A DNA stretch of 64,000 nucleotides from Halobaculum roseum (GTDB taxonomy: Archaea > Halobacteriota > Halobacteria > Halobacteriales > Haloferacaceae). Under the pieces are notes generated by a model that ran no database searches, had not been told where the DNA came from, and was given only the letters and a program-made list of their open reading frames with translations. The translations under genes and the position numbers were made by a program. Location: the NCBI RefSeq assembly GCF_019880245.1, contig NZ_CP082286.1:1072521-1136520 (forward strand), given 5' to 3'. The first letter of the stretch is position 1, and each line of letters begins with the position of its first letter. Below are positions 5,101 through 45,228 of the stretch, piece after piece.

Positions 5101-5475
5101 ATGCGCGGTCGAACGAACGTGAGACCGCGGTGCGAGCGGGGAGTGCGCGGTCGAACGGACGTGAGACCGCGACGGCGAACGGCGAACGAAGTGAGCCGTG
5201 AGCGGAACGACCCGCGAGCCGTGCGGGACGGGAGGGAGTGAAGTCGTTCGAGAGAGCGAAGCTCTCTCGTGATGGACGAGACGGCTCCGCCGTCTCGAAC
5301 CACGACCGACCGTCCCGAAGCGAACGGCGAGCGTAGCGAGCCGTGAGGAATGCGCGGTCGAACGGACGTGAGACCGCGGTGCGAGCGGGGAGTGCGCGGT
5401 CGAACGGGCGTGAGACCGCGACGGTGAACGGCGAACGAAGTGAGTCGGACGCGGAACGACCCGAGAGCCGTGCGG
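5101..5475. repeat. Composite palindromic repeat region A (two direct copies around hairpins)
   Basis: No gene lies between 5059 and 5486. Two near-identical 126-bp direct copies (5101-5226 and 5350-5475, about seven mismatches by eye) flank two perfect hairpins: CGAGAGAGC-GAA-GCTCTCTCG and GAGACGGC-TCC-GCCGTCTC (5278-5296). Each flank contains two copies of an inverted pair GCGGTC...GACCGC. The region is between the 3' end of the phosphorylase gene and the 5' end of the reductase gene. The flank module is found in reverse orientation at 31684-31952. Confidence 0.85.
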
Positions 5476-23045: not shown

Positions 23046-23288
23046 AGCGAGGCCGACCGCAGGGAGGCCTCGGAGAAACGAGCGGGGAGCGGAGCGACCC
23101 GCGAGTAAAGCGAGACGCGAGGCGGAGCCGAGCGTCTCGGGGGAACGGCGTTCACGAGACGCGTCGCGTCTCGTGAGCTCACGAGAGCTTTGCTCTCGTG
23201 AACGGCGCGGTCCTGTGCCGCGCCGCCCCGAAACGAGCGAGGCCGACCACCGGGAGGTCCCGGAAAACGAGCGGGCAGCGGAGCGACC
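23045..23288. repeat. Composite palindromic repeat region D
   Basis: Two direct copies of a roughly 54-bp module (23045-23098 and 23235-23288), both starting GAGCGAGGCCGACC and ending GGAGCGACC, enclose three hairpins: CGAGACGC...GCGTCTCG around GGC-GGA-GCC; CACGAGACGC-GTC-GCGTCTCGTG (23153-23175); and TCACGAGAGC-TTT-GCTCTCGTGA (23179-23201). The stretch lies between the convergent 3' ends of the AbrB-PhoU gene and the next gene. Its layout matches that of region A. Confidence 0.8.
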
Positions 23289-31683: not shown

Positions 31684-31952
31684 GTTCGCCGTCGCGGTCT
31701 CGCCGGTGGCTCGACCGCGCACGCTCGCCGTCTCCGTTCGCGGCCTCGTGGTTCGAGGGACTCCGGAGGCGTCCCTCGTCATTACCAGACGCCGGCCGCG
31801 TCTGGTCAGCGGCCGGAACGCTCCGCGTTCCGGCAGCATCACGAGAGACGGCGGAGCCGTCTCTCGAACGACTTCGCTCACGGGTCGCTCGCTCACGGCT
31901 CACTCCGTTCGCCGTTCGCCGTCGCGGTCTCGCCGGTGGCTCGACCGCGCAC
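31684..31952. repeat. Composite palindromic repeat region B
   Basis: An identical 39-bp module occurs at 31684-31722 and 31914-31952. Between the copies are four palindromes: CGAGGGAC...GTCCCTCG, CCAGACGC...GCGTCTGG, GCCGGAACGC-TCC-GCGTTCCGGC (31812-31834) and CGAGAGACGGC-GGA-GCCGTCTCTCG (31842-31866). The flanking sequence CGCTCACGGCTCAC..CGTTCGCCGT is the reverse complement of the module at 5101-5475. The second copy lies inside the 3' end of the kinase gene (31900-32805). Confidence 0.85.
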
Positions 31953-32919: not shown

Positions 32920-34107
32920 ATGAACTTCGAGCTGCCCGCGGAACACCGGATGATCCGGGACCAGGTCCGGGAGTTCTGCGAGGAGGAGATCGCTCCCATC
33001 GCCCAGGACATCGAGGACGACCACCGCTTCCCCGAGGAGATCTTCGAGCAGCTCGGACAGCTCGACATGATGGGCGTCCCGATCGCCGAGGAGCACGGCG
33101 GGCTCGGCGGCGACACCCTCATGTACGCGGTCGTCGCCGAGGAGCTCGGACGCGTTTCCGGCGGCATCGGCCTCTCGTACGTGGCACACACCTCCCTCGG
33201 CTCGAAGCCGATCGAGCTGTTCGGCACCGACGAGCAGCGGGAGGAGTGGCTCCGCCCGCTCGCGGAGGGCGACGGCATGGGCGCGTGGGCGCTCACCGAG
33301 CCCGGCTCCGGCTCGGACGCCTCCGACATGGACACCACCGCGGAGAAGAGCGAGGCGCGAAGCGCCTCGGAACGGAGCGGCGCAGCCGCGGAGAAGGACG
33401 GCGACGAGTACGTCCTGAACGGCACGAAGCAGTTCATCACGAACGCCAGCGTCGCCAACTCGGTGCTCGTGAAGGCCGTCACCGACCCCGAGGCCGGCTA
33501 CGACGGTATCTCGACGTTCATCGTCGACCCCGACGACGAGGGCTTCGAGGTGACGACCGTCTGGGACAAGATGGGACTCAACTGCTCGCCGACCTGCGAG
33601 ATCCAGCTGAACGACGTACGGCTCCCGGAGGACCGCCTGCTCGGCGAGGAGGGCGACGGCTGGGACCAGACGAAGAAGACGCTCGACGGCGGCCGGATCT
33701 CCATCGCGGCCCTCTCCACCGGGCTCGCGCAGGGCGCCTACGAGGCGGCCAAGGAGTACTCCGGCGAGCGCGAGCAGTTCGGGCAGCCGATCTCGAAGTT
33801 CGACGCGGTCCGCGACATGGTCATCGACATGCACCGCAAGACCGAGCGCGCGCGGCTGCTCACACACAAGGCGGCGACGATGTACGACGAGGGCGAGGAC
33901 GTGACGCGCGCGTCGGCGCTCGCGAAGCTCGACGCCAGCGAGGCCGCCCGCGAGGTCGCCGAGGACTCCGTACAGGTCCACGGCGGCTACGGCTACACCA
34001 CCGACTTCCCGCCCCAGCGGTTCTACCGCGACGCGAAGCTCATGGAGATCGGCGAAGGGACGAGCGAGATCCAACACCTCATCATCGGCCGCCAGCTCGG
34101 GCTGTAA
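32920..34107 (+). CDS. Acyl-CoA dehydrogenase with a 16-residue palindrome-derived insert
   Basis: A 395-residue FAD enzyme that dehydrogenates acyl-CoA in beta-oxidation or branched-chain amino acid breakdown. Landmarks are MNFELPAEHRMIRDQVREFCEEEIAP, the FAD/substrate motif ALTEPGSGSDASDM, then NGTKQFITN, and the C-terminal VQVHGGYGYTTDFPPQRFYRDAKLMEIGEGTSEIQ, where Glu in EGT is the catalytic base in most members. Residues 144-159 (SEARSASERSGAAAEK) form an in-frame insert between AEK and DGDEYVLNG; without it the protein would be 379 residues, the usual size. The ATG at 32920 gives the family-like start. Confidence 0.92.
   Translation: MNFELPAEHRMIRDQVREFCEEEIAPIAQDIEDDHRFPEEIFEQLGQLDMMGVPIAEEHGGLGGDTLMYAVVAEELGRVSGGIGLSYVAHTSLGSKPIELFGTDEQREEWLRPLAEGDGMGAWALTEPGSGSDASDMDTTAEKSEARSASERSGAAAEKDGDEYVLNGTKQFITNASVANSVLVKAVTDPEAGYDGISTFIVDPDDEGFEVTTVWDKMGLNCSPTCEIQLNDVRLPEDRLLGEEGDGWDQTKKTLDGGRISIAALSTGLAQGAYEAAKEYSGEREQFGQPISKFDAVRDMVIDMHRKTERARLLTHKAATMYDEGEDVTRASALAKLDASEAAREVAEDSVQVHGGYGYTTDFPPQRFYRDAKLMEIGEGTSEIQHLIIGRQLGL
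33338..33396. mobile_element. 48-bp in-frame palindromic insert in the acyl-CoA dehydrogenase gene
   Basis: CCGCGGAGAAG occurs at 33338-33348 and 33386-33396, an 11-bp direct repeat with a 48-bp period. The unique part (33349-33385) contains two hairpins of the same style as the intergenic repeat regions: CGAGGCGC-GAA-GCGCCTCG (33351-33369) and GCGGC-GCA-GCCGC (33377-33389). Exactly 16 codons are added and the frame is kept. The bordering repeat may be a target-site duplication or the trace of a recombination. The label mobile element is an inference. Confidence 0.6.
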
Positions 34108-44674: not shown

Positions 44675-45228
44675 ACTCCGGAAGCCCCCGCGGTTCTCGA
44701 CGTATTCTCAGTGGGTAACGAGCAGACGACCCTGAGCACTCCGGAAGCCCCCGCGGTTCTCGACGTCTGCGACTCGCTGTCGTTCGAAAGACGCTTCGCG
44801 TCTTTCGTGATGACGAGACGGCGGAGCCGTCTCGAACCACGCTCCTCGCGCTCACTCCGTTCGCGCTCCGGTGCTTCCGTCGTCTCGACGGTCGAGAACC
44901 GCGGCCCCTTCCATTCCCACCCATCGCAGCCTCGCTTACGTCGGAGCAAGCTCCGACGAACTCACGTTCACTCCGTTCACGTGAGCCTCCCCAGCCGCCT
45001 GCGATGCTCGGCTCGCTCACTCCGTTCGCTCCCTGCGCTTCTCGTCCCTCGCGCGCTACCGGCCGCGACGGACCGCGGCCGGCGCGCGCCAACCTACTGG
45101 TCCCATGTATTGTACCGCGAGCGAGCCAGCCGAAGGCTGGCGAGCGAGCGGCAGTTTTGGCATGAACGGGTTTTCAACGGGGGTTCCCGCAGGGAGCGAG
45201 CGAAGCGAGCGACCGAGGAAACCCCCGT
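44675..45228. repeat. Composite palindromic repeat region C
   Basis: No gene lies between 44568 and 45242. A 29-bp word starting ACTCCGGAAGCCCCCGCGG occurs at about 44675 and again at about 44739; a partial inverted partner (GTCGAGAACCGCGG) is near 44890. Hairpins follow: CGAAAGACGC-TTC-GCGTCTTTCG (44785-44807), CGAGACGGC-GGA-GCCGTCTCG (44814-44834), CGTCGGAGC-AA-GCTCCGACG (44939-44958), GCCAGCC-GAA-GGCTGGC (45125-45141). CGCTCACTCCGTTCGC-like words also recur. The long arms ACGGGGGTT (45177-45185) and AACCCCCGT (45220-45228) close it. Confidence 0.75.

Follow-up and report, generated by a model that had tools for sequence, protein, structure and literature searches.

A short palindromic element inserted in frame in an acyl-CoA dehydrogenase gene of Halobaculum roseum belongs to a multi-copy haloarchaeal family

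An acyl-CoA dehydrogenase (ACAD) gene of Halobaculum roseum contains 48 bp of palindromic sequence that leave the reading frame open, and the question raised by this locus is whether these bases were inserted there and, if so, how such a unit reaches a gene and remains in frame. The window analysed here is a stretch of 64,000 nucleotides (assembly GCF_019880245.1, contig NZ_CP082286.1, positions 1,072,521 to 1,136,520 of the forward strand), and feature coordinates refer to it.

The 48-bp element and its host gene

The product of the ACAD gene has 395 amino acids, versus 379-380 in most relatives. The gene and the parts of the element are all on the + strand:

32920..34107, +: ACAD host gene (Pfam Acyl-CoA_dh_N, _M, _1; alignment with 29 homologues)
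33338..33348, +: left 11-bp direct repeat, CCGCGGAGAAG, within the host T-A-E-K codons
33349..33396, +: in-frame 48-bp element (exact gap versus the closest congener, G009; absent in 29/29 homologues; match to a paralogue in the congener G005)
33351..33369, +: hairpin 1, 8-bp stem with GAA triloop, core GCGAAGC
33370..33376, +: inter-hairpin spacer GAACGGA, the spacer type of the ACAD subtype described below
33377..33389, +: hairpin 2, 5-bp stem with GCA triloop, GCGGC-GCA-GCCGC
33386..33396, +: right 11-bp repeat, CCGCGGAGAAG, at the 3' end of the 48-bp unit and overlapping the 3' arm of hairpin 2

The first hairpin reads CGAGGCGC-GAA-GCGCCTCG, and the added residues 144-159 are SEARSASERSGAAAEK. 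The initial annotation, made from the sequence alone, had described the 11-bp direct repeat with its spacing of 48, two hairpins with 3-base loops and a unit that adds these 16 residues in frame. The repeat and the hairpins are present as claimed, and both hairpins form the minimum-energy structure predicted for the element as single-stranded DNA (-16.8 kcal/mol, z -2.5). The in-frame addition was confirmed by the protein alignment. The 16 residues are missing from 29 of the 29 ACAD homologues aligned in frame (77-94% identical; 10 congeners and other genera), which run from ...DMDTTAE directly into K/R-DGDEYVLNG, so that the finding of a same-length loop in close relatives, which would have refuted the insertion, was not made. 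At the DNA level, the comparison with G009 gave the clean site that an insertion predicts: this congener, syntenic with our genome at about 95% DNA identity over about 200 kb, has an ACAD with 94% amino acid identity, and its syntenic DNA is shorter by exactly 48 bp, with a clean gap. The 48 bp are a clean insertion into the ACAD gene. Comparison with the structure PDB 5ol2 also leaves a clean gap at the 16-residue insert. An AlphaFold model gave a pLDDT of about 30-35 for the insert loop, from a shallow alignment in which flanking conserved residues also scored low. In the one frame used by the family, the elements encode a loop rich in Ser, Gly and acidic residues that is probably disordered.

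An explanation by ordinary length variation, either an ancestral loop lost in relatives or a chance palindrome in GC-rich DNA, can draw on the 2-7 extra residues that a few lineages carry at this loop, a slight length variation among relatives. We give it practically no credit. The absence of the insert from every homologue rejects the ancestral loop, and the same 48 bp occur, identical, in a paralogue of another species. A chance palindrome is rejected by shuffled sequences, by the covariation of the stems and by a class-wide family with zero control matches, all presented below. Adjacent pairs of GNA-triloop hairpins were found only twice in 236 kb of our genome, both belonging to the element family, and never in four shuffles.

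It is uncertain that the 11-bp repeat represents a target-site duplication, since its right-hand copy moves with the element and the left flank in the G005 paralogue carrying the identical unit is different (GGCCGAGAAG). As a simple target-site duplication it is therefore doubtful.

Using the window spacer and second hairpin as query (≤3 mismatches), we searched 148 genomes of the family and found 12 copies of this ACAD subtype in 11 of them, all 12 in one and the same ACAD loop. Their hosts fall into about six paralogue groups with only 31-58% amino acid identity. The elements are 80-100% identical, whereas most flanks compared across groups are 30-70% identical; the window copy matches that in the G005 paralogue at 48/48 positions (and at 45/45 of those covered in a further comparison), with flanks only about 70% identical. 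The unit has thus passed from one paralogue and species to another accompanied by little of the adjacent DNA, and we infer that the window copy most likely came from a different ACAD paralogue, by recombination at short homologies. The last bases of the unit, GCGGAGAAG, resemble ACAD sequence.

Copies in the genome, the genus and the class

Further in-frame copies, for which the initial annotation had suggested a search, were found both in the H. roseum genome and across the Halobacteria. Our genome was searched and sampled without a whole scan, so that copy numbers are minimum values; it has at least 8 in-frame copies, with hosts encoding the ACAD, a HerA-like ATPase, an acyl-CoA synthetase, a peroxiredoxin, an S9 peptidase, an anthranilate synthase, an asparaginase and a levansucrase. 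In the HerA-like ATPase gene hairpin 1 recurs without a mismatch, in frame, and among congeners aligned in frame this copy occurs only in our genome and in G009. This copy, when folded, gave -19.1 kcal/mol (z -5.3).

A palindrome-blind alignment of 200 kb of our genome with G009 detected three double-hairpin insertions, the first three of the following list. The others come from stretches picked for containing matches.

ACAD, 48 bp, in H. roseum
acyl-CoA synthetase, 45 bp, in H. roseum
PurK, 54 bp, in G009
Mre11-like nuclease, 45 bp, in G009
CarB, 45 bp, in G009
GlyRS, 57 bp, in G009
peroxiredoxin, 57 bp, in H. roseum

All these lengths are multiples of three, and each time the sister species has the empty site. 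With a covariance model based on four copies, the element was located in 9 of the 11 congeners, almost always in coding phase 0 (150 of about 14,000 candidates were scored). These polymorphic insertions and the other in-frame copies support the earlier suggestion that the repeat is mobile, on an evolutionary scale, and retained in frame. Elsewhere in our genome (G000:C1:1481150; L244, 8100-8250), a palindromic insertion of 47 bp, absent from G009, is not a multiple of three; the stretch is otherwise divergent from G009, and the insertion possibly lies at a gene end or is compensated.

The exact 20-bp core of the commonest second hairpin, AGCCGGACGNAGTCCGGCGA, is present in 67 of 242 Halobacteria genomes and 27 of 73 genera, and the reversed pattern, used as control, in none of the 242. 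From a public genome collection, about 73 of the 80 loci listed were haloarchaeal (Halorubrum, Halolamina, Natrinema, Haloterrigena, Halosimplex, Halorientalis, Halomicrobium, Halobellus and others). The 48-bp element thus belongs to a multi-copy, class-wide haloarchaeal family. Host proteins across the class include DnaK, ValRS, LeuRS, isopropylmalate dehydratase, adenylosuccinate synthase (PurA), PPDK/PEP synthase, CobN and histidine kinases, and seven haloarchaeal loci (L143, L146, L148, L152, L159, L177, L181) have the insert in ribosomal protein L2 (uL2), always at the site FED|GDQRLV.

Histidine kinases of Halorubrum and Halobellus (L121, L129, L145, L190) carry tandem copies at the N-box, NSVEHGST..SRTQSGDSVEHG..., in which the first hairpin arm consists of the kinase's own conserved SVEHG codons, repeated after the insert. 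Judging from the letters of the ACAD and kinase copies, a few host bases appear to have been duplicated and folded into a hairpin arm. By inference, this would fit serial short-homology template switching better than cut-and-paste transposition.

Other copies are non-coding. In Halorubrum and relatives they lie within a longer conserved intergenic repeat, ..CGACGAGGCTGGGGAGGCGTGAGG..GGGTGGGACTCAAAGGGGCAG.. (L113, L123, L133, L153, L160, L163, L167, L171 and others). Longer arrays with alternating hairpin types were seen at L139, L140, L142, L147 and L166, some of these loci being within a reading frame; the alternation suggests growth by unit duplication.

Constraint on frame, strand and hairpins

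Coding status was called from flanking codon usage, leaving out the element itself and without annotation or expression data. At the strict threshold, 23 of the 58 classifiable copies were inside genes and about 35 were non-coding (Halorubrum, Halolamina and others). All 23 coding copies were read on the sense strand in a single frame (AGC GAG GCG CGA AGC ...), with none in the other five frames, and every haloarchaeal copy called coding under the lenient threshold had this strand and frame. The frame acquires a TAG when the second loop contains a T, which was the case in 0 of 23 coding versus 27 of 35 non-coding copies (p = 1e-9). Strand and frame are fixed, and loop variants that make a stop are excluded from genes. 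Where the first hairpin of a coding copy of standard layout is longer, it has 3 additional bases; several non-coding copies have 2 or 4. Most simply, this would mean that an insertion is eliminated when it interrupts or shifts the frame or encodes a basic peptide.

The stems were compared in 58 aligned matches, where 97% of cells were paired and 11 of the 15 pairs had changed on both sides. Such changes affected 102 cells, versus 27 in shuffles and at most 21 with a slid helix. Loops are often GNA closed by C-G, which is the loop class of unusually stable DNA mini-hairpins (PMC4686876). The covarying stems and the GNA loops point to an existence as DNA hairpins. Covariation by itself cannot separate mutation bias from selection, and recognition by a protein is also possible. 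Inverted loops (TCC, TTC, TAC) are frequent in non-coding copies; homogenisation of arms and inversion of the spacer or loop are documented products of template switching at short inverted repeats in yeast (PMC8604942), and inverted loops would be expected if template switching flips the haloarchaeal units in the same way.

Movement, rival explanations and known systems

We consider it very likely that the Halobacteria harbour a family of short double hairpins, of about 45-57 bp, which insert into genes and survive there only as a multiple of three, on the sense strand and in one frame. How the copies spread is a matter of inference, and we suggest only tentatively that they do so in single-stranded hairpin form while DNA is replicated or recombined. 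The nascent strand would fold back or switch template at short homologies; this would copy the element into another site, with duplication of a few bases of the host and with the arms kept complementary. Promiscuous recombination might then move occupied alleles between species and between paralogues. No benefit to the host would be necessary, tolerance in a surface loop being sufficient, and there are no data on the effect on the protein. Against this, the insertion step is itself inferred, none having been watched, and the left flanks have no constant target. The coding pool could also descend from old insertions that were moved by recombination alone. More speculative still, and in our opinion doubtful, is the proposal that these are self-spreading mini-palindromes of the Halobacteria whose single-stranded hairpins drive copying without a transposase and can adapt to home into the loop of one protein family.

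Perhaps instead a trans-acting HUH transposase (Y1/RAYT-like), or another transposase, recognises the GNA hairpins, as in REPINs and the IS605-related PATEs. The double-hairpin anatomy resembles that of REPINs and of the ends of IS605, a haloarchaeon is known to carry PATEs with IS605-like palindromes (PMC3119063), and there are several recent insertions per genome pair. We nevertheless regard such an enzyme as unlikely, given that our genome has a single Y1 transposase gene, on contig C3 (without a comparison of its ends to the elements), that the left junctions have no constant tetranucleotide target, and that the ACAD subtype is confined to one loop of one gene family. A 3-kb stretch of contig C3 has 93% identity to a plasmid of Halobaculum magnesiiphilum. 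Much less plausible is that the loop is kept for a function, whether as a regulatory mRNA hairpin or as a useful acidic protein loop. The strong covariation of pairs would agree with this, as would the repeated occupation of the HerA, uL2 and ACAD sites in different taxa, but presence is patchy (few congeners for HerA, 1/30 for the window ACAD), the hosts are unrelated to each other and the same hairpins occur in non-coding arrays. A MITE is ruled out, the junctions sharing no constant duplication or target, and so is an intein, the insert having 16 residues only and no splicing domain.

The closest likeness, already drawn by the initial annotation and apt as an analogy, is with the in-frame palindromes of Rickettsia (RPE), which, together with those in Wolbachia protein-coding genes, were described by Ogata, Claverie and colleagues (summarised in PMC2229807). 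In both systems palindromic repeats lie in frame in conserved protein genes, are absent from orthologues and are apparently tolerated by the protein, and the same repeat family is also found between genes. However, RPE are 105-146 bp with a long stem-loop (PMC2229807), whereas the haloarchaeal element has 45-57 bp, two hairpins and frequent GNA triloops, and is distinguished further by its one fixed frame and its archaeal host class. It works like RPE but is a different family by size, anatomy and host class, no RPE sequences having been compared. An archaeal precedent is reportedly found in Methanocaldococcus jannaschii, for which palindromic repeats fused into protein genes are said to have been described in 2005. 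These are likewise within protein genes but in a different archaeal class (again without sequence comparison). To our knowledge, the means by which such palindromes move in Rickettsia, Wolbachia and the one methanogen is not known.

The mosaic arrays of few hairpin types with conserved linkers, seen here in non-coding copies, recall REP, BIME and REPIN sequences. REP elements are defined as seldom overlapping coding regions (PMC12306157), an extragenic location that does not hold here, where numerous copies lie in frame within genes. PATEs and other small mobile repeats of Haloquadratum walsbyi (PMC3119063) are also transposase-free, palindromic, haloarchaeal and without target duplication, but in PATEs IS605-like palindromes are near the ends of a longer body, whereas the present units are two hairpins only. 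No haloarchaeal description of such elements was found in the open full-text literature, although subscription journals may contain one. It appears that the family is a haloarchaeal equivalent, so far unnoticed, of the "selfish" palindromes in Rickettsia protein genes. Because sister species differ by recent insertions in essential genes, and laboratory genetics is available for the class (Haloferax, Halorubrum, Haloarcula), movement and frame retention can be tested. The elements supply new peptide loops to conserved proteins, and they call for caution in aligning and annotating haloarchaeal proteins.

The window also has intergenic hairpin arrays of 2-4 hairpins, mostly with GNA-type triloops, at 5249-5297, 23152-23201, 31784-31866 and 44785-44834. 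Three of the four share conserved linkers (GTCGTT - hairpin - TGATG - hairpin - AACCACGAC). Going by these letters, the arrays seem related in style to the coding element, with linkers that are not the same, and the proposal that the insert derived from them was not substantiated. Non-coding copies that do have the linkers of the coding element (AGC-hairpin-TGGCA-hairpin-CGAC) were found in other haloarchaea, for example Halorubrum and Halolamina.
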